This document shows positions 10,727 to 62,671 of a stretch of 64,000 nucleotides of DNA, piece by piece. The notes beneath the pieces were generated by a model. It saw only the letters and a list, made by a program, of their open reading frames with translations, did no database searches and was not told the DNA's origin. The number at the start of each line of letters is the position of its first letter. Positions within the stretch are counted from its first letter, which is position 1. Position numbers and translations under genes: made by a program. Origin of the DNA: Norana najaformis (taxonomy: Eukaryota; Annelida; Clitellata; Crassiclitellata; Hormogastridae); NCBI GenBank assembly GCA_964023275.1, contig OZ029918.1, forward strand, positions 17,712,361-17,776,360, given 5' to 3'.

Positions 10727-12304
<1,578 letters not shown>

Positions 12305-17621: not shown

Positions 17622-17636
17622 CCTGTAAACTACAGC

Positions 17637-17940: not shown

Positions 17941-17974
17941 CCTAAACTGGCGAGGGTTCGCCACAATATGCATT

Positions 17975-28152: not shown

Positions 28153-28515
28153 TTGTTTGATGGCACAAGGGCCGCCAGGGTTATCCGGGTCATGTTCCTT
28201 GTCTAATGGCACAAGGACCGTCAAAGTTATCCGGGTCACGTTCCTTGTTTAATGGCACAGGACCGCCAAAGTTATCTGGGTCATGTTCCTTGCTTAATGG
28301 CACAGGACCGCCAAAGTTATCTGGGTCATGTTCCTTGTTTAATGGCACGAGGACCGCCAAAGATATCCGGGTCATGCTCCTTGTTTAATGGCACAAGAAC
28401 CGCCAAAGTTATCTGGGTCATGTTCCTTGTTTAGTGGCACGAGGGCCGCCAAAGATATCCGGGTCATGTTCCTTGTTTAATGGCACAGGAACCGCCAGAG
28501 TTAGCCGGGTCAGAT
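28153..28515. repeat. 46-bp minisatellite x 8, 3' UTR of the I-like LINE
   Basis: Eight units of 45-46 bp, each starting TTGTTTAATGGCAC and ending CCGGGTCATGTTCC or variants. The array begins seven bases from the stop of the LINE RNase H frame and forms the whole visible 3' UTR. Open frames across it are composition artefacts. Confidence 0.95.
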
Positions 28516-28521
28516 ATGTGA

Positions 28522-31500
28522 TCAGATCTTCCTTCCGGATGCCTCCAGCCACTTGTAGATGATATCTAAGCAGCTGGTTTGACTGAGGACGGTGCGAAGA
28601 TCGAATGTCCGTTTCCTGCGAGCACACTCCCGAGTGAGCTGGTCTTGAAGCCCTGACTGGGCAGGGCACTCCATTAGGAAGTGTCCTACAGTTTCTTGGA
28701 CGTCGCACTCGTCGCAGTTTCCGGTCGGATGTTGATCCCATAGCTTCAACTGTGCGTTGAAGCAGCAGTGGCCTAACCGGAGTCTGGTGATGACAATTTC
28801 CTTTCTCCGGTTTCGGTCGCTGTATTTTCGAGCAAGGCCCACGTTCGGCTCAATGGCCCGATAGTCTAAGCCCGTGACCGAGGTGGACCATTCTGCTTGC
28901 CACTTTCGGAGGAAGTGGTCTCTGTAGATGTGTCGAGCTTCTCGGAATTCTAGGTATGTCGGGAGATCGACTCTGGTACGATTTAACGCTTCTCTGCACA
29001 TACCGTCTGAGGTCTCGTTCCCTGCGATGCCCAGATGACCGGGGATCCAGACGACCGTTGCCGGCGACTGAACGCGTTGTCCGTAGTCGTCCAGTGCGTG
29101 CATCAGGTCCACGAGATGCTGCGGTCCGGACGCAGATTTCTATCGTTCCAGGCTCTCTGTCGCTTCCAGAGAATCTGAAAAGACGACAACATGAAGTATG
29201 TTAGCGATGGTAGCCCATTCTATTGCCCTCTGTATGGCCATCATTTCTGCCGCCAGGACTGATGAGCCGTCGCTCATCCGGTAGCTTCCATGATGGTCAA
29301 GAGAGGGCACATAAAAAGAGCATGATACTTTACCTGCGGTGGTCTTTGACCCATCCATATAGACAGCCACTCGCCCGTCGTAGGTTTGGATGTGACCCTC
29401 AGCCATGGCTCTCCTTCTGGAAAGGATGTCTGTAGGTCTGATCCTCTCCTTCAGGGTGGTATCTATGATGGACGGGTAAAGTTGCCACGGTGGTCGAGTG
29501 GAGGAGGTGAGCAGAGGAATCGTCGGAGCGGCGACTTCTGCTTCGATCTGTATCGCCTTGATGCGGATGGGATCCGTGTCGCGCTTTGCTGCCTTCAGCT
29601 TCCTTCCGCTGGAGACGACTTGTGTCGGGTGATCCGGGATGGCGTTTATCTTCATGACATACTCCATCATCTGCTGCTTGCGTTGGAGGTGAAACGGCAT
29701 TTCGCCGCAGTCGACCTGAAGGGCGGCCAGACTTGTTCCTCGAAGTGCCCCGGTCGCTATCGTCAACGCTTTGCACTGGATCGTGTCGAGCGTTTTCTTC
29801 ACGTTCGTCGTGGCACTTTCGTAGGCAATGCAGCCGAAGTCGATGACGGAGCGTATCAAGGTTCGATAAACCATCAGGAGGGTGTCTTTCGACGCCCCCC
29901 AGTGCGATCCTGCAATGGCGCGCATCAGGTTGAGGCGCTTATTGCAGCGATCGGCCACGTACCGTATGTGATCCGACCAGGTGATATGCCGGTCAAAGAT
30001 CACACCCAGAAACTTCACAGTCTTCTCGTAGCCCAGGATGGAAGTCCCGAGCTTCAGCGGTCGGTGAGCTGAGGTTGTTCCACAGCGATGGAATTCCACG
30101 GCAACGGTCTTAGTTGTGGATACATTGAAGCCCCACTCGTCAAAGAATTGCTTCACTTGATCGAAGTAGGACTGCAGGTATCGTTGGTTCACGTCCGGGT
30201 ACGGCCCTGCTCGCCAGATGGCGCTGTCGTCTGCGTACAGAGACAGCTTGACGTCGTTCTTTGGATCCGGGATGTCGTTCATCATGAAAATGAACAACAC
30301 AGGGCTGATGACACTGCCCTGCGGCGATCCGTTTTCCATGTGGAAGAGATCCGACGCGAACACGGATCTTTCTGTCGGTCAGGAAATCCCGAATCCAGTT
30401 GAACATCTGACCAGTGATGTTATGGTGGCGTAGCTTGTGCAGTAGGCCGTCGGTCCACATGAGGTCGAAGGTTTTCTCGAGATCCACGAAGACTCCAGTG
30501 AGGGTATTCTTGACGTGAATAGCTCGCTGGATGTTGTCTTTGAGCCGGACGATGTGATCCTGGCAGCTTCTCAGCCTGCGGAAGCCGGACTGGAACTTGT
30601 TGAACTGGTTGGTTGATTCCATGTGCCAGTTCAGCCTGTCGGTAACTAATCGCTCCATCCGTTTGCACAGCACAGAGGTCAGCACAATCGGACGATATGA
30701 GTTTCCCTCGTAGGCTGGTTTGTTCGGCTTCAGGATCGGGACGACGATGGAGTTCTTCCAGAGAGCCGGAAGTTTGCCCTGTCCCCATACCTCGTTGAAC
30801 AGTTTCAGCAGCGCCAGCAAGCTGGGCTGAGGAAGCCGGGCCAGGATCTCGTACGTGATGTTGTCTTCGCCGGGGTTCGAGTCCTTCTTACACCGTAGGA
30901 GGGCGATTCGTAGAGCCTGGATGATGAAGGGCTCGTTGAAGGGTTCTTCGTCAGAGGGCAGCTGACCACCGTGTAGTTCTTCAAAGTGCTCGACTTCAAA
31001 GTCAGTCTTGCGCTTCTGGAATTCCACAGTGTGGTTTTGATTGCTGCTCACTTCAGAGAAACACCTTCCGAAGAATTCCGCTTTCTCCTCGTTTGTAGTG
31101 TATTGATGCCCGTCCTTTTTCAGCGTTGGTATTGCTGGTTTCGATCTCGCACCGGACATCTTCCTCAGTGTTACCCAGATCTTTCCAAGTTTCGACTTGT
31201 CGTTGAGTGTCGTGCAATATTCTCTCCAGGACGCCTTCTGCGCATCCTTGATGATCTTTTGGGTCACTCCCTTGATGCGTCGGTAGTCAGCAACGTCCTC
31301 CGGATTCCGAGTTTTCTGCATCTTTTTTCTTGCGTCGGTGCGCATCTTGACATGTCTTGTGCATTCTTCAGTCCAGTACGGCACGTTCTTGTTGTTCTCT
31401 CGGGGAGGAGTAGTCACTGGGATGTGCAGCGTCGCAATCTCCTTCAGCGTTTCCACGATGTTGTTGTGGCTCGTCTCGATGTCATCGGTGACGAGATCTG

Positions 31501-32347
31501 GTGTGATTGCTTTTCTGCAGTCCTCCTTGAAGGCCATCCAGTTGGCCTTTCGGTAGAGCCACCTCGATACGAAGGACTCTGCAACCGAGACTACCTCCTC
31601 CACGCCGATGAGGATGGGCGAATGGTCACTTCCCATCGAGTCGTCCAGGACTGTCCAAGTGCACTTTTGCGCCAAGAGCGTCGAGGCCATCGCAAGGTCC
31701 AGATGACTGGAAGTTCCGAAGACGTTACTGACAAAGGTGGGAGTTCCAGTGTTTAGAGCGACATAGGAGCTGGCTTCCATGTCGTCTTCCAACTGCGAAC
31801 CCCGCGCGTCAGTAGAGTTGGACCCAAAGACGGTGCTGCGCGCATTGAAGTCGCCAAGCACGATCGCCCGTCTCTCTCGAAAGAAGCTCGAGTATGTGTT
31901 CGGCAGTAGAGGTCTCTCCGAATCACCTGGCCGATGGTAGACGTTCACGATCGTGAGCTTCTTCGCCAGTGCATCGATTGGGATGGCGATCGATTCCGGA
32001 TCGTCGGTGGTGCCAGTCAGAGAGTAGGCGATTCCTTTCCTGACGAACGTGGTCACTCCTCCTCCCTGCTGTCCCGTGGATCGGTCATGTCGCACACAGG
32101 TGTAGCCTGGTATTTCAAGACTGTTTGTTGGTCTCAGCCATGTTTCCTGAACGCATATGACCGATGGCGGATCCCGCATTTCGGAGATGCGGTGCCTCAG
32201 CTCCTCCAGGCGGGCTCTGAGGCTACACGCGTTCCACTGCAGTATGGTGAAATCCATGTTGGGTTTCACAGAGAGGAGTGGCAGACGTGGTTTTCTTGGC
32301 ATCGAACCCTTCGCTGATTGCGCTGGTGACTTTGTCGGTGACCACAT
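28522..32347 (-). pseudogene. LINE ORF2: endonuclease, reverse transcriptase, RNase H
   Basis: Endonuclease: QWNACSLRARLEELRHRI, VICVQETWL, VLGDFNARSTVFGS, SSHLDLAMAS, GSDHSPILIG (32,254-31,600). RT: NSYRPIVLTSVLCKRMERLV near 30,690, FRRLRSCQDHIVRL near 30,570, GVFVDLEKTFD near 30,490, NGSPQGSVISPVLF near 30,320, LYADDSAIW near 30,235. RNase H: VAVYMDGSKT, AEMMAIQRAIEW, VVFSDSLEA, giving the D-E-D set, then VVWIPGHLGIAGNE. A zinc-like CDECDVQETVGHFLMECP follows near 28,690. Lesions are a frameshift near 30,365 and an in-frame TAG at 29,140-29,142; otherwise the frame is continuous. The family call to the I group is from RNase H plus C-terminal Cys motif. Confidence 0.9.
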
Positions 32348-41670: not shown

Positions 41671-41852
41671 TGTTATTTTCTTTTCTTTAACACGACAACT
41701 CCAATCTTGCCAGTTACCGACATTTTTTTTCTTCTAGACACGTTCTTCTTATATACATTAACACGCCCCCAATCACTGTGCACACATATATACACATCCA
41801 GTGTACGCCCTCATCCCGTCACGCCTCACCGGCTAGCAAAACCGTGCTTACA
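41671..41852 (-). repeat. 3' LTR of the Gmr1-like element, 182 bp
   Basis: Matches 58,475-58,655 almost throughout. Minus-strand ends are TGTAAGCAC and AAATAACA. It contains a TATA-like TGTATAAG-type word and an AATAAA-like signal. A purine-rich tract (GAGGGATAAAGGTAA, about 41,853-41,867) adjoins its inner edge and is the likely polypurine primer. Confidence 0.9.
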
Positions 41853-41940
41853 TTACCTTTATCCCTCATTTTTCAAGCTCACAAATTATCTTTCAAAATT
41901 TGTGAACTTGCCACCATCACATACACAACTTATCTCAATA

Positions 41941-42048
41941 ATGCACTCTTATCTACTTTATACATCAATGTAATCTTATCTACTTTATACATCAATGTAA
42001 TCTTATCTACTTCATACATAAATGCAATCTTATCTACTTTATACATCA
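41941..42048. repeat. 27-bp tandem repeat x 4
   Basis: Four units of exactly 27 bp of the form ATGTAATCTTATCTACTTTA plus TACATCA, between the RNase H stop and the 3' LTR. Confidence 0.97.
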
Positions 42049-43440
42049 CAGTCTTGACAAAAAATCAGCAACCGTATTCAAACGCCCTTTCTTATATTGT
42101 ATTACTATATCAAAGGTTTGTAACGCTAATGCCCACCGTACCAATTTGGCAGACTTCGACATAGATTCGGTTAAATAAGTGAGTGGGTTATGGTCCGTGT
42201 AAACATTAATTTTGGATCCAATAACAATTTCTTTCAATTTGTTCAATGCCCAAACTATGGCATAAGCCTCCTTCTCAACAGTAGCCCATCGTTTTTGGGT
42301 ATCCGTTAACTTTTGACTGATAAAAGAAACAGGGCGTGGAATTCCCTCACAATCTACTTGTGTTAGAACAGCCCCTACAGCAAAATCACTACTATCACAA
42401 AATAAACTAAACGGTTTCCCAACCTCAAACACATGCAAAACCACATTGCAACGTATCCTATCCTTAATTAAATCAAATGCTTGCTGATGTTTATCAGTCC
42501 ATACAATTTTATCCGCCATCTATTTAAATGTTAAATGGTTTCGCTAACTTTGCAAAATCCACAATGAATTGTCTGTAATACCCAAAAAATCCTAACATTT
42601 GTTTTACTTGCTTCTTACTTTCATGTGGTTTCAAATTAACCAAACTTTCAATCCTCTCTGGATCCATCATTTTCTTGCCAGATCAAATTACATGTCCAAT
42701 AAATTTCACTTCGCTTTTAGCAAAAATGCATTTCTTTACATTCAAAGTGATATCATGTTCCCTCGTACGTTTCAAAAATGCCTCTAAGTGTTTCAAGTGT
42801 ATACCCCAGTCCTGGGAATGAACCGCAATGTCATCCACATAAGACTCTGAAAATTCACGTATAGGCTGTAAAACCATGTTAATAGCCTTGACAAATGTTC
42901 GCCCAGAATTTACCATACCAAATGGGACTCTGGTAAACTCGTACAGTCCATTGTGGGTCAAAAACGCCATTTTCCACTGATCCTGTTGTTTTACTGGACA
43001 AGTCCAATATGCGCTTCGACAGTTCAAAATTGAAATGACGTTGGATTTTCCGACCTGATTCAAAACATCACTGACGATCGGCATGGGATATTTACAGTCC
43101 ACGGTAAACGAGTTGATATATCTGTAATCGCATGCAAGTCTCAACGAACCATCTTTTTTTTCACGATGACTAATGGACTTGCCATTCTACTCGATGAAGG
43201 TTTGATGATCTTGTTTTTTAACATTTCGGTGATCTGTTTATCTACCTGTTCCCGATAAATGACAGGAATTCGATAAGCCATAAATTCTTTTTCTTTGAAT
43301 TCTGGTTTGAGGATAATCTCATGTTACACCAGAGTGCATAAACCTGGTCTGTCAGAGAAACGATCTGCATACTTATTTAAAAGGTCTATCAGCTGTTTTT
43401 GTTGACTTGGTGTCAAATGAGTAATTTGCCCATAATCCAA
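42046..43440 (-). pseudogene. Gmr1-like pol: reverse transcriptase and RNase H
   Basis: RT starts after the integrase tail with LTPSQQKQLIDLLNKYADRF and DRPGLCTL, a stop at 43,324, then LRLACDYRYINSFTVDCKYP near 43,140, FTRVPFGMVNSGRTFVKA near 42,910, and the catalytic SYVDDIAVHS near 42,845. RNase H follows in 42,046-42,519 (SLFCDSSDFAVGAVLTQ, RWATVEKEAYAIVWAL, VYTDHNPLTYL) and ends TVADFLSRL, immediately before the 3' LTR region, with no integrase after it. Breaks: the stop at 43,324, a frame change at a T-run near 43,150, a stop near 42,683 and one near 42,520. Confidence 0.9.
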
Positions 43441-45698
43441 CTCAATCGGTTTCCCATCTTCCTCTTTCTTTTCGGCACCCTGTGGCAATTCAACTACCGT
43501 TCCAAAATCTTCGTCTTCCTCCACAATCAGACCACAACTTAATGTTCTTGTTACATACTTTCGCATTTTGTTTGCATGTATCACTCTTCGACTGTCACCT
43601 CCCATGTCAACTAAATAAGAATCGTTTGATCTTCTTTGTAACACAACACATGGGCCGTGCCATCTGGATAATAATTTATTCGTTGACGTCGGATACAGGA
43701 CTATCACCTTCTCTCCAATTTCAAATTCTTTCTCTTTTGCTCTTCGGTTGTACTGTTCGCTATATTTATGCTGTTTTCTTTCTGCGAAACCTTCTGCATA
43801 TTCCATCGCTCTTTCCATATTTTCCTTCGTTTCTTTCAGATATTTTATCGGTTGAACGCCAATGTGAGGTGGTAAGTTAATTTCTTTCGACCAACTTTCT
43901 TTCATGATTGTTACAGAATTTCTTGGATGTTTTCCATAAACTAACAAACACGGCGCTATTCCTGTCGTTGCATTAGGAACTTCTCTTAACGCCCAAACTG
44001 TGAATGGTATAATCTTATGCCATTGACGTGGATCATCAATAATCACATGTATCATTTTTTTAACGTTTGATTCCATCTTTCAACTAATGCTGCTGCTTCT
44101 GGGTGTCCAGGCGTATCGAATCTTGGACTACATCCCATCATTTTAAGAAATTCTCTTGTTAAATTGGCTGTGAAGTTCGTTCCTTGATCGCTGGTAATTA
44201 CTGACGGAACTCCCACATCAATGAACATCTGCATTAATGCTTCACATACCGCTTTTGCTGACAACGATTTCATTAGATATATCATAGGGCACCTTGTACA
44301 TGAATCGACGATACATAGACAATACTTGTGTCCCACTGCAGAAGCTGGTTCTATGGGACCAACAACATCCATAGTCATCCTTCGGAAAGGAATTTCTTCC
44401 CTAGGTATAGGATTAATTGGTACCCTATTGATCACCAAGTTTCTCGATTTCAGTTGGCAATTTTCGCAGGACTTGCAATATTTCTCGACATCTCTTCGCA
44501 TTTTTGGCCATACAAATGATAAATTGATTCGTTCTCTTGTCTTTTCATCTCCAAGATGTCCACCAAATACAGATTCATGCGCCAGTTCCAACACTTGCAA
44601 TCTTGTTTCTTTGGGCAACACGAGTTGGTATATCACTTGATCCAACATCTTATACCTTTTATAAAGTAACCCATTTACTATACAAAAGTCAGAACCTTTG
44701 TTTCTCGCCATCTTCCACCAAGATACTAATGATTCATCTTCTCGTTGTTGTTTTTCAAACTTTGTCGCATCTGCCATCTGCATTTGTTGTTCATCACTTC
44801 TGTCTTTTTCTCGAAATAATTCTCTTATTTCCAAATCACCTTCGGTCCACTCTTTTGTTTCAGTCTCTTCTTCGTTCTCGCCTCTCCTACTATCTTTCTC
44901 CTCTTCTTTCTTTGTCACCTCTTTCTGCTTTATATTTCCTTTGCGTCCTTTTCCGGTTTCATTATTATCCACACTTTCAGTTTCCTGCTCCACTTCACCC
45001 TCTTCCACTTCATTTCTTTTACTTTGCATTCTTGTCACCACGTTTACTTGCATTTCACCTTTTATCATATTCATCTGTGGTACAGCTCTCAATTCTTCAA
45101 TCATCGTAGGATGCAGTAACAATCTTTCCTTGCTACTCATTTTTTCCAAACTTGCACCTATCAGCGTGACATAAGGCGTAATCGAGTATTGACTCTGTGA
45201 AAACCCATCTGTTTCTTCATTATTGTTGTATATTCTCATCTGCATTTTCACCAATTTAGCAGGGATAGCATCGCCTGCTACACATTGAATTTGTACATTT
45301 CCGACCTCTTCGACTTTCATGCCCTCCAGTACTTCGTTGCTAATCACTGGGATCTCTGTTCCTGAGTCGAGTAATGCTTTGATTTTTCTTGGTACTCCAT
45401 CCATACCACACATTTCCACATCTATATACTGCAATGCTGCTTTCTTAATCAACGTTGACATCCTGTCTTTCCTTGTAATGTTTTCATGACTCTCCGAACC
45501 CATTAATTCTTCCTTTTGTAGTTCCACTTTCATGATAGTTTTTACTTCTTTCTTCTCTTCCACTTCTCCTTTTGACCTAATATAACCTCCTTTTACAAGT
45601 GGATGTGATATGCTCTGTAGATTATCGGGCATATTCATAACTTTAATTCGATTAACTTGTGCATTATCTGCATTATTCTCACCACCGAGTCTCGTCAA
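43440..45698 (-). pseudogene. Gmr1-like pol: protease and integrase
   Basis: Protease: KALLDSGTEIPVIS (DSG active site) near 45,375. A charged linker rich in Glu and Lys follows. Integrase: GGHLGDEKTRERI and CKSCENCQLKSR (HHCC zinc finger) near 44,560-44,455, MTMDVVGPIEP near 44,365, VITSDQGTNF near 44,190, and AALVERWNQTLK near 44,080, giving D-D-E. A frameshift near 44,070 leads to the C-terminal domain KVIVLYPTSTNKLLSRWHGP near 43,700. That domain reads on into the RT start at about 43,440. IN therefore lies upstream of RT. Confidence 0.88.
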
Positions 45699-45699
45699 T

Positions 45700-46697
45700 C
45701 ACTTGCATCTGATTTACTTTTGGATTTCCTGTATTTCTTGCATAATTGCTATTCGTACTCGTAAGTGTACAATTTTTGACCAAATGTTTACCGGATCCAC
45801 ATCCGTGACATCGTTTCATCTCACTTCTCTGCTCATTACCGCTTGTTCTTCTGAAAAGACCACTTGCATCTCATCTGACAAAATTCTGTGACGACCTGTT
45901 GTAAGTCTGTCCATACCTAACTGGTTCTTTTTGTTCCGTACCCACTGGAAAATTTGTTCTGGCCTCTTTTTTAAACTGGTTGTCAAACCCATGACCCCCG
46001 GTCTCTTTAATTCCTCTCCATTTCTCCGTCGTACTTTGGTTGCTTCCCCAACGTTCATAGTTATTCTTGTTCCACACACCTGTATCAATCCGGTTATTTA
46101 TATACATATCAGCTAAATCCGCCACTACACTAGATTCAAAACAGTCGACTCCCTCTTTCGACAAAACAAAATGCATTGTACCTGGTGGTAAAGTCTCTTT
46201 TAGCTTATCTGCCACAAACAGATCAAATAACTTATCGTAGTCTTTCTCCACCTTCCTACTCCTGACGTAATAGTTTAGCAAATTCTTGAGTCTAGCTGTA
46301 AACATCGTGTACGTTTCTTCTGCCATCTTTTTAGCATCTATAAATCGAGACATGTACTCTCTCGGCGTTAGTTTAAATTCTTTCAACAAATGATCTTTGA
46401 CCGTTTGTAATTTTCCATATCCGCATATGATAATCTATTCAGAACAGTACGGGCTTTTGACATCATCATTGGCAACAACAACTTTACCCAATATCTTTCA
46501 TCTACCTCAAAACTGTTAAACGCGTTCTCCACGGTCTCAAAATATAATGGCACTTCCATCATGTCAAAGGGCATGCTCGGTAAAACGTGCTTCATGGCAT
46601 CTCCTATCTTCTTGATCTTCGCTAACAACGTTTCACTTTCTTGCTGTTTCCTTTCTAATAACTCTGTCTGCCTCTTGCGCTCTTCCCGTTCCTCAGC
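45700..46697 (-). pseudogene. Gmr1-like gag, capsid and nucleocapsid (downstream of the insertion)
   Basis: After the PolB element, gag resumes with a charged stretch (EEREERKRQTELLERKQQES) and a capsid region with RYWVKLLLPMMMSKA, FKLTPREYMSRFIDAKK, FDLFVADKLKETLPPG and HFVLSKEGVDCFES. The last part resembles the SCAN domain, which is thought to derive from a Gmr1-like capsid. A CCHC knuckle CHGCGSGKHLVKNC lies near 45,800. Frames change near 46,385 and 45,870. Confidence 0.75.
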
Positions 46698-46703
46698 AGT
46701 ACT
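46698..46703. repeat. Left target-site duplication of the PolB element
   Basis: AGTACT here against ACTACT at 57,398-57,403: five of six bases match. A 6-bp duplication is the Polinton/Maverick standard. Confidence 0.6.
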
Positions 46704-47787
46704 AGTATACAAGGGCGAGTTCTGGCCCACCTCAAAACAAGGGCGGGTTCTGGCCCACCTCAATACAAGGACAGGTTTAAAATCACCTCCAAACAAGGAC
46801 AGGTTTAAGATCACTTCCAAACAAGGACAGGTTTAAACTCAGCTCCAAATGACCACAGGTTTAAACTCATCTCGAAACAAGGGCCGCTTTAAACTCACTT
46901 CCAAAAGACCACAGGTTTAAACTCAGTTCCAAAAGAAGACGAGTTTCATCTCCAAAAGTTCATTTATAATATTAATAATAATAACAATAAATGCGATTTA
47001 ATAGAATAATTTAATAAAAGATCGCCTGTCTTAAATATACTAAGTTTTATTATAAGCTGTATATATTGGAATAAATGTGATAAATATATAAAGGATATCG
47101 CGTGTCATTGCTTAAATATATTAAGTTTTATTATAAGCGGTATATAATGGTATAATCGTGATAAATATATAGGCCCTATAAATGTAATTAGAAGAACGAA
47201 AGTCCTATAGATCGTTACGGAAGAAGAAGAGGAGGAGGAGTCTTAAGATGAGAGGGGAAGCCGCAATGCTTGGTACATATATTGGCTAACCCATGATCAC
47301 GCCTTGCTCAGTCATCCGAGCCGTTCTATTTGTATGTTTCCGTATGTCTGCGTATCTGTGTGGCTCCGTCTGGCCGTGTTTCTGAATGTTTCTGAGCGTT
47401 TCTGTCTGTGTATCTGTGCGTTTCTGACTGTCGGTGTATTTATGTGTGTGCATCCGTGTGTTTCTATCCGTCCGTCTATCCGTGCGTTTCAGTATATCTA
47501 TGTATTTCAACACGTCAGTATGTCTTTGTTCTTCTCTCTCTCAGCGTTTCTGTGTGTTTCTGTATGGCTGCAAATCTGCGTGTTTCTATCTGTCGGTCTC
47601 TCTGTATATTTTTGTCTTGCCGTGTATATCTGTGTTTCTTCCGTCTCTCTAAGTATCTGCGCGTTCCCGTCTGTCTGTGTATCTATGCGTTTCCCTCTGG
47701 CAGTGTATCTATGTGGTTCTGTCTGGCTGCATTTCTGAGTGTTTCTGGAAGAAGAGGAGGAAGAGGAAGAAGAAGAAGAAGAAGAAG
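46704..47787 (+). repeat. Left TIR of the PolB element, about 1.08 kb
   Basis: Outer part: nine 28-bp units. Middle: AT-rich sequence. Inner part: a degenerate array around GTGTTTCTGTCTGTC-like words (47,330-47,745), ending in a GAA run. It matches 56,313-57,397 inverted; over a 70-codon stretch I see one changed residue between them. Confidence 0.95.
46711..46957 (+). repeat. 28-bp iterons at the left tip
   Basis: Nine units of 28 bp starting seven bases from the terminus. The first two carry GGTTCTGGCCCACCTC; most others carry ACAGGTTTAAACTCA and end TCCAAA. The last unit is a few bases short. They are mirrored at 57,144-57,390. Confidence 0.9.
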
Positions 47788-50204
47788 ATTCACGCGTATA
47801 AGCATACGTACAGACAGGTGCATTCTCTTAAAGACAAAGGCGTAGGCGCAGACGATTATACGAGTCCGCACACACACACACACACACACACAAACAATCT
47901 CAAATACGATGTTCCATTTATAATTAAAACACTATACATGCGTCTAACTGAAATGTATTCGCGTCACGCATGAAAGATCAGACGTCGTTAGTCTGGCATA
48001 CGAATTTATGACTCTCTCTCTCTCTCTTTATACATATATATATATATCTCCCAATCTCTCTCATATCCATACGCGTGTATCTATTAGCCAGTCTCTGTCT
48101 CTTCACCTCTATATAGTTATCTCACAAACTTTATTTTAAGCATTATACGACCAAAAGCTTACACATAAGCATATATATATATATAAATATACACAGGCCT
48201 ACATACATATATAGATACGCATACACACTACTACGTAAATAGAAACACGTGAGCAATTATACACACACGCGCGCATACGTACAGACACACGCACTCCGTC
48301 ATGCGTACGCGCAGACTCGTGCACATACAAACGTACATTAGAGTAGTCAAAGGATCATTTATTCAGTACGAAAGAATATCGACGCGTACGAGCAAACTGC
48401 GTTATAGCCGTACAACCAAATGTTTATCAATGCATAGGCACGTTACAAAACAATACCAAGGCATCGAGCAAACAGGCTTACAAGCATATACGTACCCGTC
48501 CGTTCGTAGCTCATCGCCAACCTTACGTGACCCATAAATAGCAACATCTAATGCGCCAGTGTCTAATGCACAAAGCATCAACCGACGGCGCACCAAAGCC
48601 AAAACTACAATGGAGTCGATATCCAGAAGGACAGTCCGCACGACAGATAGGCAACATACGATGGATAAGCGATTCGAAACGGATAAGTGTTAAATTGAGA
48701 ACAAAATGACGGGTGCTACAGAGCGGAACGAACAGATGCGAATATATATTGATATAACGCGTTAAGACTCGAAATGTATAGCGTAAAAGAAATGACACCA
48801 TGTAAATAAACCTCGCGCATTTAGCCTGGCCTACGAGTTTATATCTTTGACGAATGTGTAGTACAAATAATTATCTAAGATTGGCATTAATTAATATTGG
48901 CAAGCGTTCGTTTCTAATCAATCGCACCTGTCAAACGCGATATCCATCCGTAGGATTTAAAGATTTAACCCCTATCCGAAATTTGCAATTATAATCGGCG
49001 TTCGAATGAACGCCTTCTTATGGTATCCCCACCTTTTGCAGTCGTCGACGTTTGCGACGGTTGACGGCTTTGATCCACCCCACCCTTCCAGTCATTGTCA
49101 ACTGCCAAGATTGACACCTTTGATCTCGATTCAAGGCCCCATACAGTCTGCAATTACAAGTGTTAGATGGGTAAGGCACCTGCTAACAAGTTCGTACCTG
49201 TTAAAGTATACAAGTATACCCCCCGCACATCCCATTAGCGGGAGACGGCCGTCGGTCAATTTCAAGTCTAAACAAGACGACATTGTTTACAATATCTGGT
49301 GTCAATCGGTTTAAGCGGGCTAGCTAAAGACGATATGCACACGCAGACAGACGCACATTCGTACACACAATCTTTTAAATGGGCTAAACGACTAAGAAAA
49401 TGCACGTGTCAGTCTCTCCGCCCGTCTGTCCTTCCGTCCGTCTCTACGTCTGTCCCTCAGTCAGCCTGTCTCTCTATACGTCTCTACGTCTGTCCCTCAG
49501 TCTGGCTCTCCGTCCGACTCTACGTCTGTCCCTCCGTCTGTCTCTCGAATTATTCGTTTTAAATCTTAACCGTATTTAGCTAGAGAGAAAAAAAACGTAT
49601 AAGAAGAAGGAGGAGGAGGAGGAGGAGGAGGAGGAGGAGGAGGAGGAGGAGAACGAGGGCGAGCTAATGTTTCAATCGTTAGGAATGACTCGCGTTCGAT
49701 TGGTCTCTCTCTCTTTCTCTGCATCTCTCTGCCTCTCCGTAACTGTCTCTCACACTTTGTCTTTCTTTCAGTCTGTATGTCTGTCTGTATGTCTATCTCT
49801 CTCTCTCTCGCTCTCTTTAATTCGCCAACGACATTGACGACATTCAACAGTCACTGCATCAATTAGCATTGACCGGTTATACGCGTAAACGTACACCTGT
49901 ATAGCGGCCCAACATTAGCATGTCATGCGAACACAAACACACGTGGAAAAGCATATGGTCATACATATATGCCTACACACACAGTCACATTTCGAACGCA
50001 CGCGATTGGTTATGATTTTCATCGGGTTAGAGATAAGACACACCTCTAAAGGCGCAGATTCAGCGAGCCACTCCCCTCAATCGATGTAGCGTACAATGCA
50101 TCGATTGTTTAATCCAATTGATTGACAGCTCGGAATGAATTAAATGCATATTGATTATCGCTCGGTCCTTGATTCGTGCACCGACATCGTTCCATTAGGA
50201 AGTC
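47788..50204. other. Left arm of the PolB element, no gene recognised
   Basis: Low-complexity and AT-rich sequence: TA and CA runs (47,870-48,230), a copy of repeat R1 (48,551-48,740), CT-rich arrays (49,400-49,560), a GGA run (49,607-49,650) and TCTC runs (49,705-49,815). No integrase, ATPase or capsid motif was seen on either strand. Confidence 0.6.
48551..48740 (+). repeat. Dispersed repeat family R1, copy 2
   Basis: Matches 11,893-12,110 in order, with GTCTAATGCACAAAGCATCA, GGCGCACCAAAGCCAAA and TTGAGAACAAAATGACGG. Its presence inside the PolB element shows that R1 inserted after that element formed, or travels with it. Confidence 0.7.
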
Positions 50205-50731
50205 ATGGACGAGGATACGGCGTGTAAGTTCGACACTCGATTTTATCATAGGTCTATATTTATTTAGTATAACGAATTTAGTAATTTACATTTTAAATTT
50301 ATGTCGTAGAATATATATATGTGTTTCTATACGAACTTGTCATTTGATTTGGCATTTTTGATCGTACGTTTCTAAGCTCTAGTAATATGTATAGAAATGA
50401 TTGCTTAGAAAGATCCATCGATTGCTGCTTTGCGCATTATGATAAGCGTCTTACGGAAGTCAACGGCTTTGACTAAATTACGAATTGCTAATGCATCAGA
50501 TTATAAATTATAAATGGTACATTCTTATTTAAATCTACAATATCAGTCAGGATTTATATATTTTGGTATCTTTCTACATCATTCTACTTTATATTTATGC
50601 TATATAGAAATGTCTAGAAACGTCTTAAAACACGATCGCTTAACTCGATCCAGTAATCAAATATGCGTCGTTTATGCATAGCGAGATAATTACGCCTACA
50701 GTCTCTAACGATCGTGTCGCTTTTATTATAG

Positions 50732-50890
50732 TACACGAATTAGAGCCTGACGATATAACAGCTTCCGAATTGAATCGATGCGCAGCGCGTTCTCCAAATC
50801 ATCAGTCGGAGTCAATGTGGAATCAGTCGAGCAATATGACAGACAGCGAACTGCTGGCATACGTTTTACAACTCGAAACCCAACAAGTGT
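50732..50890 (+). other. PolB exon 2: first copy of a duplicated module
   Basis: 159 bp, phase 1 at both ends, between TTTTATTATAG and GTATGTATAC. It encodes WNQSSNMTDSELLAYVLQLE near its end. It is a symmetric exon, which can be duplicated without breaking the frame. Confidence 0.65.
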
Positions 50891-51071
50891 GTATGTATAC
50901 ATATTCAAAAGTATATAGCGAAAATTTCTATGACAATATTGCGTGAAATTCATCGTTAGCCGTTCGTAGGTCTATCTTACTATCACACGCTTATATGCAA
51001 AAGCATCGATAATGAAATACAAATAAATTCGTCTTGTAAGCTTTACACATTCGTAACATTGTTTGTTCTAG

Positions 51072-51257
51072 CACGCGTTTCTGATCATAACGATACAACG
51101 GACGCGATTGAAACGACCGATTTGCAACTGTTCGATTTATGGAATCAGTCGAGCAACGTAACGGACGATGAACTGATGGCGCATGTTTTACAATATAAAA
51201 CCGAGGAAGAGACAAAACGTAAACTGGCAAGATCGATAGAACGTGGAAAACAACCGC
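51072..51257 (+). other. PolB exon 3: second copy of the module
   Basis: 186 bp, phase 1 at both ends, between TTTGTTCTAG and GTATGTATAAG. It encodes WNQSSNVTDDELMAHVLQYK, aligned with exon 2 over 21 codons; 48 of 63 bases agree by my count. A basic stretch (KRKLARSIERGK) follows. Confidence 0.65.
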
Positions 51258-54200
51258 GTATGTATAAGTATATAAATTTATATTCGTAACGCTATTGCGA
51301 TAACTCGTTAAATTTCCATTTCAATCATTTCTTTCTTTCCATCTCTAACTGCCCATCTGTCTTTCTGTCTGCCTTTCTATCTATCCATCTATCTATCTAT
51401 CTATCTGTCTATCTACCCGCCTTTCATTCTTTCGGTCTATATATCATTCAATCTATCTGTTGGTCTCGCTCTCTCGCAGTTACGTTCGGAAGCATTGGTA
51501 TAGAAATGTATATACGCGAATAATATATATATATATACGCTCATTTTCTTGTTAGTAAAGAAAAGAAAACTGGTGGAATCAGAAGGAATGTCATCAACGG
51601 AAAATCGATACAAGAAAATAAGTATGGAATCAATAACTCATTTTCAAATTTCCGGCATTTTCGTCTAGTTTCATTGTAGAGTATAAATCCAACGATCATG
51701 CATACAATCGTATCAAATTTGTGTTAAAATGCACTTCTTTAGATCGATTAGATATTTGTGCTTGCGGCGTCTTTGTGGGTCGGTTACTTCGCTTTATTAA
51801 CAATCCGTTGCAAATAATCATTCGTACATACATGCATATATACACTCCTCAATAGCTCCCTTTGCATATTTATAAGAATGCAATTCTAACGAGTAAGTAA
51901 TTTAAATTTTGTTTAGATAACGGTACGGGTGACAAGTGTAAAACTTGTTCGGCCTACAAGGAAAAGTCGCTGTCCAGCGATGGTATGTGTGATACGTATA
52001 CGAATCAAAAAGAATGTTCGAAATGTCACGCTCGACTACAGACTCGCTTCTTCGCGCCGGGCAAAGACTGGTGCAAGACGTGCGATAGGAAGCAGTCGAA
52101 ACTTCATCTTAAATCTTCAATCCAAGGCACCTTCGTAAAGCAAGACATTCCAATCGATCCGAACGTGATCGATCCTCATCCGATGTTGCAAAGTTTGGAT
52201 CACACTTTTAGAGAGACTCTGGAAAATTGCCTGAGCGATCAGGGGTGTGTATTCTTTAATCGATATTTCGGTTCAGCTTTAGGAAATCATCGATTTCATA
52301 CTCACACATAAATCAAATACGTGCATTCCCAAGCATCATTGTCGTTCATCTAATCGATTCAGATCGAGTATTAATCAAACAATTTCTGTTCGCAATTGAT
52401 GTTTTAGACCCATCAAATGGTACTTAACGATGGACGTCAAGTTCCTGCGAGAGAGTCTCGAAGGAGATGCATCTACCACTGGGTATTTTAAATCGGAAAA
52501 TGCCATCCTAACGAGTCCTTTTCAGCTCGCAGAGCAGCTCACAGCTGCTAATACGAGGTTTGGAACGCTAATAGACTCGTTCGTAACAGAGGGTTCGGGA
52601 TGGCGAGTCGACGGAGTAGCCGATCTCCAATTATGCACAGCAGCGTATGATCCCATTGGTGGATCGTCCTTTATACCCACACCTCCTTGGATAGCCAAGA
52701 AGAAGGCGACTTTAAATATTGTAAACGATAAGGACGATTATTGCTTTCTGTATAGCGTTCTCGCCGTTTCTCACTCATTCAAAATAATCCACAACGTGTA
52801 AGCCATTACCGACCCTTTCTAAACGAGTTAAATATAGCTAATCTAAAATTTCCTTTAGATATCGGGCAAATCCCACTGTTTGAATCAAATAACGCAGAAT
52901 TCGCCGTAAACGTAACATACGCAAACGACAAGGATAAAAATTTTGTACCGCTGTATGCCTCTCCGCACAGAGACAGAGAGCACATAGTTAATTTGTTGCT
53001 GCTGAGCAAAGGTGAAAAGCGTCATTACGTTGTAATTCGCAATCTTTCGGCTCTTTTGGCGAGGCGAAATTCTCGCAAATGTAAGATCTTTCCCTGTCCG
53101 TATTGTCTTCACTGTTTCAAATACGAACGCGTCAAAATGGCTCATATGCTGGAATGCGGACGTCACGGACTTCAAGCGGTTAAATATCCGTCTTCAGGTA
53201 ATCGGATTTTGAAATTTACCAATATTCGAAATCAAATGGCCATGCCATTTGTAATTTACGCAGATTTCGAATGTTTCTTAGAGAAAACAGACGTATCCAT
53301 CGGAAATTCGACCAAAATTTGCGATAATCACTCACTCATTTTGCTGCTTGACGGTCTCATGTTTTGAGCGTATAACAACGAAGAAGCTTTCGCGTATAGC
53401 GGAGATAACGTGATGGACGCATTTTTTAATCATATAAAGAACGGAACAGGACAGAATTAACGGCATTTTATCGTTGAACGTGAAAATCTAGCCCCTAACG
53501 ACGTTGGAACAGGAGACTTATAATTCCTGTAAAATGTCCTTCTTGCGATACTGACTTGAATAGCAAAAATAAAGTCAGACATCACTGTCATGTGACGGGT
53601 AACTTTTCAGAGGCCGTTTGTTCAAACTGTAATCTACAACTGAAATTTCGAAAGCCCACAAAATCGAAAAACTTCCTGATACCCATTGTTTTCCATAATT
53701 TATAAGGATACGATTCGCACTTGATATTGAAGCATTTAACACGCGAATACGCGCCAAACGAGATATTCGTTATTGCTACAAATATGGAAAAGTATTTGGC
53801 GTTTGAAATTGACGGTCTTCGGTTTTTGGATTCGCTGCAATTTCTAAACTGTAGTTTAGACGTTTTGGTGAAAAATTTGGCAAAAGATGGAGATTCAAAT
53901 TTTAAGCATCTGCGCCGTCATTACAACGACGATGAGCAATTTAAATTACTTTTACGCAAAGGCGTGTATCCATACGAATATATGGATTCCGAAACCAAAA
54001 TGACTGAAACTTCTTTACCAGCAAAATCCGAATTCTTTAGCAATCTCACAGAAGAAAATATCGACGCCGACGATTACGCGCATGTTCAGTCTGTTTGGCG
54101 TAAATTTGAAATGCAATCTCTTCGCGATTATCACGATTTATACGTTAAAACTGACGTTATATTGCTCGCCGATGTTTTTGAGGAATTTAGAAAGATGACG

Positions 54201-55830
54201 ATGTCTAACTACGAGTTAGACCCGCTACATTACTTTTCTAGCCCCGGTCTGAGCTTTGACGCCTGCCTTAAAATGACAAAGGTATCGCTGGAACTCTTAA
54301 CCGATCCCGATAAATTTCTGTTCATCGAAAAGGGCTTGCGCGGCGGTGTCTCGATGATTAGCAATCGCTATGCCAGAGCTAACAATCCGTATTTGAGGGA
54401 CGATTACGATAGAAATGTGGAAAACAGTTACATTTTATATCTCGATTGTAATAATTTGTACGGATTTGCCATGAGCGAACCTTTACCTACTGGGAAATTT
54501 AGGTTTTTGGACCCCGACGAAATTGAATATCTTGACTTGGAATCGAAATCGGCTGACGACGCAGATGGCTTTATTCTGGAAGTAGATTTAGAATACCCGC
54601 AAGAATTACACGTTAAACATAACGACTATCCTTTGGCTCCGGAAAAGCAGGCCATCAATTCAAGCATGTTGTCGCCGTATGCACGCGAATTGTGTGAAAA
54701 GTTAGGTCTCAAACACGGAAACGACGTGAAAAAATTAGTGCCAAACTTTAACGGCAGGACAAACTACGTCGTCCACTATCGGAATTTACAATTTTATCTG
54801 AAAATGGGAATGAAATTGAAAAAATTCACAAAATTTTGCAATTCGAACAATCAAAGTGGCTTAAGACATATATAGATTTCAATACTAGCAAGCGACAGGT
54901 TGCCCCGTCTTCTTTCGAGAAAGATCTGTTTAAGCTTTTCAATAATTCGGTCTATGGAAAGACTCTCGAACAGACGCGCCATCATCTGAACGTGCGCGTC
55001 GTTACCAATGCAAGATCGGCAAAACGCTATATCGCTCGTCCGACTTTTATGTCGTTTCACATTATAAACGAAGATGTAACGGTTATTCAGTTAACCAAGT
55101 CTTCAATCTTTCAGAATAAGCCCGTATACGTTGGCATGTCTATTTTGGATATTTCAAAATTACAAATGTAGTTTTCATTACGAACATATATTGACCGTGT
55201 TCGGCGAAAGAGCAAAATTGTTGTTTACGGATACCGATAGTTTGTGCTATCACATTCGCACGGAGGATGTCTATTCCGATATGAGAAATCATACTCACCA
55301 TTACGACGCGTCGGATTATCCTCCCGATTACATTCTTTACAGCCGCGTTAACGCTAAAGTAACAGGCGAATTTAAAGACGAAACCAATTCCATACCTCCG
55401 ATCGAATTTGTAGGCTTGCCCTCAAAAATGTATAGCCTGTTGCTTCCCGACAATAAGGAAAAGAAAACTGCAAAAGGTATTAAGAAATCGTTTGTGAAGA
55501 AAAATATTCGTCACGAACATTATAAGAGTTGTCTGTTCGACGAACGACTTACATCGTCTAGGTTTTTCGCCATTCGCAGTCGTAAACACGCTTTGTACAC
55601 TATAGAGATCCGTAAAACGGCTCTTTCGCCTTTCGACGATAAACGTTTTCTGCTTAACAGCATCGACTCTTTAGCTTACGGACACGTTCATGTACTCGTT
55701 GATAATGCTTAATCTTTTGTATTCGCGTTTGTCTGTTATTAACTTGCAGACTGTTTAGTTTGTCAACGTTGATTTGGCCATCGTTGCTGTTTCTCGAGTA
55801 ATATATGCTTACTTTTACATTTCTGATGCT

Positions 55831-55836
55831 AATAAA
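55831..55836 (+). terminator. Polyadenylation signal of the PolB gene
   Basis: AATAAA about 120 bp after the PolB stop, the first such hexamer downstream. The rest of 55,713-56,312 holds no gene. Confidence 0.5.
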
Positions 55837-56312
55837 ATCAGTTTCAACACCTTCTGGTTATCCATTTGTAACTATATCAGTTTCCCTTAGACATCTCCTA
55901 TACTTGCTCCTTTCTCTATTAATGTTATGTCTTCCAGACTCGAATATAATCTAATCTACTCAAAAGACTTCTAGCACATCGTTATCATAATGTACAAGAC
56001 CTCAATTAATTCGTATAAGAAGAATAATTTATGCGTACAGTCAGCACGATAGAGATAAGAGATGCAGAAACGAGCAAAAAGGAGTAAATCTTGCAGAGAA
56101 CAATTCAAGCAAAGGTGGCAATAGATTGTAAAACTTTGATTCGTATATTGTATGAACTCATATAAATCTCAAGAATGCTGAAATTATACGATTGAAAAGA
56201 CTCGTAACACGAAGTAAAGCGTTAGAATGAATACTAAGATTATCTCAAATCGTGTGGAGACGAGAGTATGGTTTAAAGTCATGAAAACTATGTTCTTCTC
56301 TTCTTTCTGCTT

Positions 56313-57397
56313 CCTTCTTCTTCTTCTTCTTCTTCCTCTTCCTCCTCTTCCTCCAGAAACACTCGGAAATACAGCCAGACAGAACCACATAGATACACTG
56401 CCAGAGGGAAACGCATAGATACACAGACAGACGGGAACGCGCAGATACTTAGAGAGACGGAAGAAACACAGATATACACGGCAAGACAAAAATATACAGA
56501 GAGACCGACAGATAGAAACATGCAGATTTGCAGCCATACAGAAACACACAGAAACGCTGAGAGAGAGAAGAACAAAGACATACTGACGTGTTGAAATACA
56601 TAGATATACTGAAACGCACGGATAGACGGACGGATAGAAACACACGGATGCACACACATAGATACACCGACAGTCAGAAACGCACAGATACACAGACAGA
56701 AACGCTCAGAAACATTCAGAAACACGGCCAGACGGAGCCACACAGATACGCAGACATACGGAAACATACAAATAGAACGGCTCGGATGATTGAGCAAGGC
56801 GTGATCATGGGTTAGCCAATATATGTACCAAGCATTGCGGCTTCCCCTCTCATCTTAAGACTCCTCCTCCTCTTCTTCTTCCGTAACGATCTATAGGACT
56901 TTCGTTCTTCTAATTACATTTATAGGGCCTATATATTTATCACGATTATACCATTATATACCGCTTATAATAAAACTTAATATATTTAAGCAATGACACG
57001 CGATATCCTTTATATATTTATCACATTTATTCCAATATATACAGCTTATAATAAAACTTAGTATATTTAAGACAGGCGATCTTTTATTAAATTATTCTAT
57101 TAAATCGCATTTATTGTTATTATTATTAATATTATAAATGAACTTTTGGAGATGAAACTCGTCTTCTTTTGGAACTGAGTTTAAACCTGTGGTCTTTTGG
57201 AAGTGAGTTTAAAGCGGCCCTTGTTTCGAGATGAGTTTAAACCTGTGGTCATTTGGAGCTGAGTTTAAACCTGTCCTTGTTTGGAAGTGATCTTAAACCT
57301 GTCCTTGTTTGGAGATGATTATAAACCTGTCCTTGTTTTGAGGTGGGCCAGAACCCGCCCTTGTTTTGAGGTGGGCCAGAACCCGCCCTTGTATACT
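56313..57397 (-). repeat. Right TIR of the PolB element
   Basis: Inverted copy of 46,704-47,787, with the array of 28-bp units at 57,144-57,390 and the terminus GTATACT at 57,391-57,397. Small differences occur in the outermost units. Confidence 0.95.
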
Positions 57398-57403
57398 ACT
57401 ACT
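57398..57403. repeat. Right target-site duplication of the PolB element
   Basis: ACTACT, pairing with AGTACT at 46,698-46,703 with one mismatch. The gag frame of the host element continues from here to the left flank when one copy is discounted. Confidence 0.6.
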
Positions 57404-58182
57404 CTCAGCCAATTTCTTCAGATGCGCCTCTTTCAGTGTCCTTTTCTTTTGTTCCATTTCTACACGTTCTTGCCTTTCCATTTCTGCCCTTTCCATAGCT
57501 TCCTTCTTTATTTTCAAATCTTCTTGTCTGGCTTGTTCCGCCCGTTCTCTTTCTAACATAAGTTCCACTTCTCTTGTTGATTCTCTTTCTCTTTGTTCTT
57601 CCATCTGTTGCAGACGCTCTACTCGCTCTCTTTTCCTATTCTCTTCTATCTCCATCTGTTGTTCCATTCTCCTCCGTTCGGCCTCTTCTCGATCTTTTCG
57701 TGCTTGTTCCATTTGAAAATCAAACTTTTGTCTTTTCAATTCCAATTCCTCTTTGAGAATCTTTTCTGCTTTCTCTTCTTTCTCCTTTTGCAACTCCAAT
57801 TCCGCCTTGCGAGCCTGTTCTATTCTTTCCAAGTCCGCTTTGCGAGCCTTTTCTACTTTCTCTTCTTTCTCCCTTTGCAACTCCAATTCCTCCTTCCTTC
57901 GTTTCTCTTCCCTCTCTCTTCTCTCATTATCATCCACTGCAGAAATACTTCCATAGACATCGGTGCAGGTGTTTTCTCGACTGGTTTTTCTACAATGCCA
58001 CCTACTGCTCCTTCTTCAGTTTCTTCTTTTAGCCATACTTCAGCTAACGTCTCCATCAAAGCCTCGCGTGTCATGTCCTTCGTCTGTTTCTCCTTATATC
58101 CCGCTTTCAACAACAGTTGCTTTAGCCTATCAGAAGACATTTTCTGTATATCACTCTGCTTTTCCGTCGATAACCGTTCCAT
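57404..58182 (-). pseudogene. Gmr1-like gag, N-terminal part with long charged coiled coil
   Basis: The likely start is the ATG at 58,182 (MERLSTEKQSDIQKMSSDRL), followed by a helical block with LKQLLLKAGYKEKQTKD and EALMETLAEVWLKEE. After a frame change near 57,900 comes about 180 residues of Arg/Glu/Lys-rich heptad-like sequence (RRKEELELQREKEEKVEKA and similar), a strong coiled-coil candidate. It ends at HLKKLAES, where the PolB element is inserted. A long charged coiled coil ahead of the capsid is not usual in gag and may drive multimerisation (inference). Confidence 0.7.
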
Positions 58183-58474
58183 CTTACTTGTTTACCTCAA
58201 GTGATACTCGTCTAATGAGTTCACCTTTACGGACAGTGGTTTTGTTTCGTGCCGAACAAATAAGTTTTATACCTGTCCTCTGTTGTTTCTGCGTAGCTTC
58301 ACCTTCTGTGCTTCTTCTCGTTCACGTCCACGTCCACGTCCTAGTTTTCTCTCCGGTTGCGAATTCTTCTCTTCGTCTTTATCAACGTTCCTCTTTATAT
58401 TCTTCGGTTTCCTCGACTCGTTCTCTCTTCGGTTGGGACTTCGTATCCCGCCGCTTTAACCACCAAATGTGAAC

Positions 58475-58655
58475 TGTTATTTTCTTTTCTTTAACACGAC
58501 AACTCCAATCTTGCCAGTTACCGACATTTTTATTCTTCTAGACACGTCTTTCTTATACACATAAACACGCCCCCAATCACTGTGCACACATATATACACA
58601 TCCAGTGTACGCCCTCATCCCGTCACGCCTCACCGGCTAGCAAAGCGTGCTTACA
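58475..58655 (-). repeat. 5' LTR of the Gmr1-like element, 181 bp
   Basis: Minus-strand ends TGTAAGCACGC and AAATAACA; AATAAA occurs near 58,530. The TTTGGTGGTTAAAGCGG region just inside (about 58,450-58,467) is the probable primer-binding site. Confidence 0.9.
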
Positions 58656-60690: not shown

Positions 60691-62404
60691 TATGGATATA
60701 TTAAAAGATTAATGTACCTTTGACAGAGGTTCATGAGAAAAAACTGCAGCTGTATATAAGCAAGCTAAGACACTTAGCATCAAAGAAAATACGTACTGCT
60801 GCTAAGAAGAAACTGATTTAGACTGGTGGAATCATCGGTGCTGTAGTAGCTCTTGACCTTTCCTTCCTAGATTCGATTCTAAATCTCAATCATTAGGATT
60901 GAGAAGTCAAAGGAGGGTTTAGTCGATCCCAAACAAATTGAGAAATAGGAGGAAACCAGAACAGATGTTGAACTAGGCAGAACTTTATCAAAATTAGATG
61001 GCAAAATCTACGATATACTACTGTACATAGTTAGTAATATTGTTCACGACGAAAAGCAAACTTGTTTTCAAATAGTTTTAGTCGATTTCTAAATATTGAT
61101 GAACTAGCATTATATCAAAATTTACTTCTAAAATGGCGATAAAAACAGAATATGTGGAGAGCGACAGCTTAAATTCATAGATTTCTAGGTGCTAAGCACA
61201 GTTCCAAAGAAATGGAAATCTCACGCTTCACGTCTTTTGATGCACATTAAAAATAACCCAGATTTGACTTAGAGCGACAAGGGATATGTCTTGAACTATA
61301 CGTCGATTTCTAAAACCCATGCCGTGGATTTGGTAAACGACTTACTCAGAAAAAAGAATGTCGACTCCAAGACCTAACCGTTGTCCTTACCTTTCCAAAC
61401 AAGGAGAAATTAAATTTTCAGATTAATTTTATGTACCTATTCCTGATCGCTCATGCGATTTTTTAGAGGCTGTCTAAAGGTGTAGTCTTTGCAACTTCGG
61501 ACCAGGATTAGTTAAAACCGAATCGACTGCAATGTCTTGTTTTATGAGTGTTTTGCATTGATGTTCAAAGATGTTGCATCGGCTGTTTCCTACCACACAT
61601 TTTGCACCAGTGTTTACCGGAAACGAAAAGGCGAGCTTGTTCACATTTTGAACATTCTTTTTGAATCATGCAAGTAATACAAACCAATCGCTCAACAACA
61701 ACTTTTTCTATTACGCTGAACAACTTCTATATTGTCAGCAGTATCGATATATATAAAAAACTTGTTACTTATTTGTTAGGATCATTATCATATTTTGTAA
61801 AATATGCAATGTAAGTTCTGAGAAATTTTAATGGTACAATATGGTACAATATGTATGCTTGTATGTATCTATATACGTATGTAAAATTGTATGAATGCAT
61901 GCATATATGCATGTTTGCATAATTAATATAGCGCGTTTTAAATACATCACCGATGCTGCACGTACGACTATCTGCCTGATCTAAATAAGTGTGTAAGTCA
62001 GTCAGAAAATGTGTAGAGATATGCATATGATCACTGTATTTATCTCAACAGTCTGCAAACAGAATAGATAACGAATGAAGTACGAAGCTGAAAACAAGTT
62101 AAGATTTTCATACTTCTTCTATTCTGTAGACTTTCTGTAGGCGTTCCTTCTGAATCCACCAGTTTTCCCTTCCTTAAAGAACAAAAATTACCGTATAAGT
62201 GTTTTACGTATTTGCATTTCTATATCGTTGATTGTGCAAATAAGTATTGTGTGTGAGAAAGAGAGAGAGACAGACAGACAGACAGAGACAGAGATAGAGT
62301 AAAAGACAACGAGACAGAGACAGAGACAGCAAGACAGAGAGAGAGAGAGAAATACAAATGATAGATGTAAAATTTAACATGTTATTACAATATAAATTTT
62401 CTTA
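60691..62404. other. No recognisable gene
   Basis: AT-rich sequence without coding similarity. A GA/GACA microsatellite occupies 62,255-62,352. Confidence 0.5.
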
Positions 62405-62671
62405 ATGAATATAAATTTGTATGTACATGCACATTGGTTTCCTCTTTCTATCGATCTGACCTGTTTGTCTTTTGTTTCTTCTTCTGCTTATTATTGTAAG
62501 ACGTGCGTCAGTAGCTCGCCGTCTGAATTGTTGCTCGATTTATTTCATAAATCGGATATGCTTGAAAAAGCTACTGCATGCAGTTGCGAACCGTTTATTT
62601 TAACCGCGTCTGAGCAGCGAATTAATTCGTTATATCGTCATGCTCAAAGTCGTAGGCCTATGCTAAAATAA
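62405..62671 (+). other. Possible terminal exon, unknown protein
   Basis: A pyrimidine-rich tract ending TTATTATTGTAAG (62,447-62,501) could be a splice acceptor. After it the frame reads SSSPSELLLDLFHKSDMLEK and SEQRINSLYRHAQSRRPMLK and stops at a TAA overlapping AATAAA (62,668-62,674). The composition is protein-like and unlike nearby low-complexity frames. I do not recognise it. From 62,675 to 63,841 I see no gene. Confidence 0.3.

Follow-up and report, generated by a model that had tools for sequence, protein, structure and literature searches.

Results

Structure and borders of the element

The 64,000-nucleotide stretch of the Norana najaformis genome analyzed here (contig OZ029918.1, positions 17,712,361 to 17,776,360 of the forward strand, assembly GCA_964023275.1; hereafter the window) contains an element in which a family B DNA polymerase (PolB) pseudogene of the Polinton type lies between long terminal inverted repeats (TIRs). 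The element splits the minus-strand gag gene of a long terminal repeat (LTR) retrotransposon, an interruption that went unremarked in the initial annotation (Table 1). As judged from its sequence, the PolB, the end motif, the long TIRs and the 6-bp flanking repeat support assignment to the Polinton/Maverick family. No RVE-type integrase was detected in the element, which is thus classed as a defective derivative rather than as an autonomous Polinton.

The TIR arms differ at 11 of 1,090 positions without any indel (99% identity), or at 10 of 1,084 over the narrower span of the initial annotation, whose estimate of 1.08 kb for the repeats was borne out at just over 1 kb. A 28-bp tandem array lies close to the end, and repeats with a 26-bp period are found deeper in the TIR. 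With up to three mismatches allowed, the outermost 17 bases match the window at the two element ends only (0.11 matches expected). The left border reads CTCAGC followed directly by AGTACTAGTATAC, and the right border reads GTATACTACTACT followed directly by CTCAGC. Intact vertebrate Mavericks are described in PMC8097293 as having TIRs of 46-1,447 bp and 6-bp duplications that lie outside the commonest end motif, (AGT)2//(ACT)2. The motif is exact at the right end of the element and carries one substitution at the left end. Because the CTCAGC hexamer is perfect (the odds of a chance match to any one hexamer being 1 in 4,096) and because the published end motif (PMC8097293) is then accounted for, we prefer this border, and the element most likely comprises 46,698-57,403, 6 bp more per side than first read. 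The inverted ends AGTATAC.../...GTATACT of the initial annotation are real, with the border most likely 6 bp beyond each of them. Its 6-bp duplication with one mismatch, AGTACT/ACTACT, would be the (AGT)2//(ACT)2 end motif itself; as a target duplication it is less likely than CTCAGC, given the perfect hexamer directly outside it and the published motif.

The interrupted gag provides a second view of the borders. With the left gag flank as query, 21 relatives were obtained, and the three that were aligned continue through the insertion site without the element. The best border was CTCAGC for six relatives, that of the initial annotation for five and a 3-bp version for another five, with five ties and none for GTATAC. 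P0245 is gap-free across the junction under the CTCAGC border only (166 vs 152), and P0243 and P0244 align slightly better under the initial border (196 and 201 vs 190 and 195 under CTCAGC). By-eye residue counts in P0241, P0243 and P0244 favored AGTACT/ACTACT, and the wider comparison with all 21 relatives was undecided. Taken together, the alignments support insertion into an open gag frame and disfavor GTATAC, and they do not decide among the CTCAGC, initial and 3-bp borders. The TIRs diverge by 1% and the LTRs by about 4%, so the TIRs look younger than the LTRs, in the order that nesting requires.

The host retrotransposon (41,671-58,655) has short putative LTRs of about 182 bp, outside which a duplication of 4-6 bp was looked for and none was found. 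Its integrase domains directly follow a protease-like motif, and Pfam detected no reverse transcriptase. The domain order may recall that of Gmr1-type Gypsy elements.

Table 1. Positions in the window of the element, its parts and the interrupted retrotransposon.
Feature	Position	Strand	Remarks
Whole element (most likely extent)	46,698-57,403	+ (oriented by PolB)	10,706 bp
Left TIR	46,698-47,787	+	1,090 bp
Right TIR	56,314-57,403	-	1,090 bp; ends in ACTACT = (ACT)2
Left end, AGTACT	46,698-46,703	+	One substitution off (AGT)2; motif from PMC8097293
Likely target-site duplication, left copy CTCAGC	46,692-46,697		Perfect match to right copy
Likely target-site duplication, right copy CTCAGC	57,404-57,409		Perfect match to left copy
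Polinton-type PolB pseudogene	52,430-55,712	+	Near full length; start codon inferred
Endonuclease-VII-like zinc region within PolB	53,499-53,702	+	PF02945, E 4e-05
Stretch without recognized gene	47,788-52,429		Longest open reading frame 136 amino acids (95% limit of mononucleotide shuffles 138)
Gap between PolB and right TIR	55,713-56,313		No integrase detected
Copy of dispersed host repeat	48,534-48,737		75% to 11,877-12,069
Stretch with diverged copy at about 61,430-62,660 (-)	51,086-52,250	+	Includes Cys-rich open reading frame 51,901-52,308
gag, 5' part	57,410-58,182	-	
gag, 3' part	45,816-46,691	-	
Putative LTR of host retrotransposon	41,671-41,852	-	96% (176/183) vs other LTR
Putative other LTR of host retrotransposon	58,475-58,655	-	96% (176/183) vs LTR at 41,671-41,852

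The PolB pseudogene

The polymerase blocks of PolB are still readable, and its largest piece matches PF03175 at 53,706-54,872 with an E-value of 9.3e-13. A region of the PF02945 type, as present in the element PolB, is also precomputed for many of the listed PolB relatives. The PolB of the viral contig L013 matches 52,490-55,685 in five successive pieces with four frame changes (PolB is also covered by the profile search). Together with two in-frame stops in the stop map, this amounts to six lesions, which were unremarked in the initial annotation. A GT-AG pair at 52,245-52,410 would keep the frame by inspection; no intron is claimed, because a start at 52,430 needs none and intact vertebrate Mavericks are reported as intronless in PMC8097293.

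Relatives are abundant, with 7,198 of 7,991 scored candidates at E <=0.001, 120 of which are listed. Identity to the largest PolB piece is 62% for the top-scoring database relative, and in a tree of 73 sequences, including the first 60 of the 120 listed relatives, the element PolB groups with P0001 and P0034 (support 0.987). No solved structure matched the PolB profile at E <=0.01. Among viral contigs, PolB relatives with their surroundings were found at two loci, and a single-sequence query gave none; the search of genome contigs returned 12, from assemblies labelled as bacterial or archaeal. Neither search yielded a close relative of this PolB with its surroundings.

Gene content of the arms

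RVE integrase, packaging ATPase and C5 protease are among the four Polinton core genes according to PMC3671162. The initial annotation had recognized PolB alone, which is borne out by Pfam, tblastn and profile searches, but this gene is broken. Its proposed search of the arms for integrase, ATPase and protease detected none of them by six-frame Pfam or with the L001 integrase query. From 91 listed open reading frames of at least 45 amino acids, 20 were scanned singly with Pfam, and 47,786-51,902 and 55,688-56,315 were scanned in six frames with X at stops; outside PolB, these scans gave sub-threshold matches only, with no Polinton gene among them. The longest open reading frame outside PolB and the TIRs encodes 136 amino acids, compared with 138 at the 95% limit of mononucleotide shuffles. 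In tblastn with 13 of the 20 listed proteins of the viral contigs L013 and L014, matches in the element came from the two PolBs only. For the L013 integrase, the match lay in a Gypsy integrase at 13 kb of the window, and none of the ten remaining proteins (neither PolB nor integrase) matched the window at E <=0.01.

The best test of integrase loss is the search with the L001 integrase. As a positive control, this query finds the integrase at the left edge of the window (see below) with an E-value of 2.3e-68, while the same whole-window search gave no match at E <=1 inside the element, and a search of the element alone gave nothing better than E 0.83. No packaging ATPase was found in the arms by six-frame Pfam or by tblastn with two ATPase queries, and no C5 protease by six-frame Pfam, the latter by Pfam alone. 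For a capsid gene there was neither a match to L013 or L014 proteins nor an open reading frame above 136 amino acids outside PolB and the TIRs, but Pfam detects such capsids poorly and the capsid labels are guessed, so that a decayed capsid gene could still be present. A capsid module with ATPase as in Polinton-like viruses was likewise not detected by tblastn or six-frame Pfam, the latter being poor for capsids. Six-frame Pfam revealed no transposase domain in the arms, and tRNA and Rfam scans of the whole window gave no match.

A Polinton remnant, the genome sample and other features

A second, decayed Polinton remnant occupies 1-3,983, where it is cut by the window edge. Its integrase (4-634, plus strand) is about 64% identical to the L001 integrase, and its PolB pieces (about 658-3,787, minus strand), arranged tail to tail with the integrase, show mostly 30-55% identity to the element PolB. 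The initial annotation took this pair as a sign that an integrase-bearing relative has been in this genome. The pair is real and such a past relative is shown by it; a working helper is not, as this copy is in pieces. The tail-to-tail arrangement of PolB and integrase is also found in L013 and L001. In L004, PolB is followed by integrase-like matches on its own strand; in L008, such matches come before PolB.

The wider genome was sampled as 201 kb in 21 stretches of one contig; the length of this contig (63.9 Mb) and the lack of relatives among bacterial and archaeal genomes point to a eukaryote. No second TIR was found in this sample, the matches being of low complexity or short (45 positions at most). 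The sample contained a single decayed fragment of PolB (212 positions, 76%), and 2 of the 21 stretches had integrase-profile matches, of either Polinton or retrotransposon type. The repeat within the left arm at 48,534-48,737 had matches at E <=1e-3 in 7 of the 21 stretches, some of them short; from its length and dispersal we presume it to resemble a short interspersed element. The reverse-oriented copy of 51,086-52,250 at about 61,430-62,660 is diverged (63% identity overall, 69-72% in parts), and no PolB match follows it.

Elsewhere in the window, 12,689-17,203 holds an unbroken Gypsy gag-pol frame of 1,504 amino acids with protease, reverse transcriptase, RNase H and integrase domains; GC content is about 52-57% over 13-17 kb, compared with about 40% in much of the window. 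Pieces of a non-LTR retrotransposon with endonuclease and reverse transcriptase lie at 29,140-32,347 on the minus strand, and local tandem duplications (84-94% identity) at 17,630-17,944 and 28,151-28,512.

Discussion

Origin of the element

The reading we favor, and to which we give about an even chance, is that of a defective Polinton/Maverick-type element, the other genes of which were lost by internal deletion before it landed and which was inserted by means of the integrase of another Polinton. An internal deletion would have removed the other Polinton genes, likely before insertion. Copying would be protein-primed from the (AGT)2 ends, with the TIRs allowing jumping back, a role that PMC8097293 expects in Mavericks on the model of adenoviruses and tectiviruses. 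An RVE-type integrase would place the copy into its target and so produce the 6-bp duplication. As no integrase was detected in the element, this enzyme would have acted in trans, supplied by another Polinton, or in cis ahead of its loss.

Two lines of evidence bear on the timing of gene loss. From the TIR divergence, about 15 substitutions and 0.6 new stops are expected over the PolB span, and the probability of at least six PolB lesions is then 0.01 to 0.24 at indel/substitution ratios of 0.1 to 0.3. This excess of lesions over the TIR clock would favor a copy that was defective before it arrived. The tail-to-tail layout, if ancestral, in turn implies gene loss to the left and to the right of PolB, for which a TIR divergence of 1% leaves little time after insertion. 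We therefore lean towards gene loss before rather than after insertion. The initial annotation had offered two options, and its deletion derivative moved by the integrase of another element is the better fit, although loss before insertion is not proven.

A course of events that we rate only a little lower, if short of an even chance, is that a complete Polinton inserted with its own integrase and that its other genes were then deleted in place while PolB decayed. Host mutation has eroded 96% of vertebrate Maverick loci (PMC8097293), and at an indel/substitution ratio of 0.3 the PolB lesions, with their probability of 0.24, may have accumulated in place, but TIRs that are 1% apart and free of indels allow little time for this. 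The number of deletions needed depends on the ancestral layout: the left-edge Polinton requires two, whereas in the vertebrate Mavericks of PMC8097293, with a PolB module and an integrase module on opposite strands and both pointing to the centre, a single deletion between PolB and the right TIR suffices.

Several observations weigh against gene loss before landing and insertion by a foreign integrase. With the vertebrate Maverick layout, a single deletion would account for all of it, even if it followed insertion. For some of the plausible indel/substitution ratios the excess of lesions lacks significance, and the insertion could look too young if the TIRs have undergone gene conversion. No second copy that would show mobility in trans was found in the window or the 201-kb sample. 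The searches were also of uneven strength. Pfam scores the known left-edge integrase at an E-value of 0.036 only, and having nearly missed this gene, its silence in the element says little about a decayed integrase; the integrase profile, for which 120 of the 462 L013 integrase relatives were used, missed it as well (482-607 only, E 1.8) and found retrotransposon integrases only in the window. Pfam is poor for capsids too: the guessed capsid gene of L013 scored 0.028 and that of L014 nothing.

We consider it improbable that the element represents a semi-autonomous Polinton lineage reduced to PolB and its jumping-back ends, copying itself by means of the protein-primed polymerase, borrowing integrase from full Polintons and keeping PolB under selection until recently. 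PolB is near full length, with readable polymerase blocks and 62% identity of its largest piece to the best-scoring relative, and no other gene was recognized in the element, but PolB carries six lesions, there is no second copy in the window or the sampled 201 kb, and nothing found in this analysis points to such a lineage. The minimal PolB replicon of the initial annotation is thus left without positive support. If it existed, it would be the mirror image of a satellite with a borrowed polymerase. An origin from another transposon type with 6-bp duplications, such as a Ginger2 with a GTATAC duplication and a captured PolB, is very improbable: GTATAC is present at both ends and fits the RTATAY target reported in PMC2836005, but a border there disrupts the gag frame and ranks first for none of the 21 relatives, which suggest an in-frame empty site without GTATAC, the ends do not follow the TGTNR pattern of PMC2836005, and the arms contain no transposase by six-frame Pfam.

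Significance and comparison with known systems

As a non-autonomous Polinton, the element is well delimited and apparently young; both ends, the end motif and the interrupted target gene are present, and the same genome contains an integrase-bearing relative. More copies with identical inner junctions, if they exist, would mean that Polinton ends can be mobilized in trans, whereas a lone copy would be an ordinary fossil. A phrase search of the open-licence literature returned nothing on non-autonomous Polintons or Mavericks. The kind of element is nevertheless already known, as Mavericks reduced to polymerase or integrase alone have been described and most vertebrate loci are degraded (PMC8504770, PMC8097293).

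Among other mobile elements, Ginger2 (PMC2836005) belongs to the same class of 6-bp duplications, with a target that GTATAC fits, and differs in having TGTNR ends and a transposase; its border is disfavored by the gag frame. Foldback/Galileo-like elements may resemble the element in their long, internally repetitive TIRs, and have a P-type transposase; six-frame Pfam showed no transposase domain in the element arms. Polinton-like viruses without an integrase have been suggested to use the integrase of resident Polintons in trans (PMC4642659). The element shares with them that an RVE integrase is absent or undetected, but the defining capsid and ATPase genes of these viruses were undetected here.

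Autonomous Polintons/Mavericks share with the element the Polinton-type PolB, the long TIRs, the (AGT)2//(ACT)2 ends and the 6-bp flanking repeat. The differences are in size, 10.7 kb compared with 12.7-24.6 kb in the intact vertebrate elements of PMC8097293, and in coding capacity, with a broken PolB and without a detected integrase, ATPase or protease. The degraded Mavericks of Mayetiola destructor, reduced to polymerase or integrase alone (PMC8504770), are similar in that a single core gene remains. They are described there as fragmented, with consensuses of 0.6-4.5 kb, whereas the element described here keeps both TIRs, its end motif and its flanking repeat.

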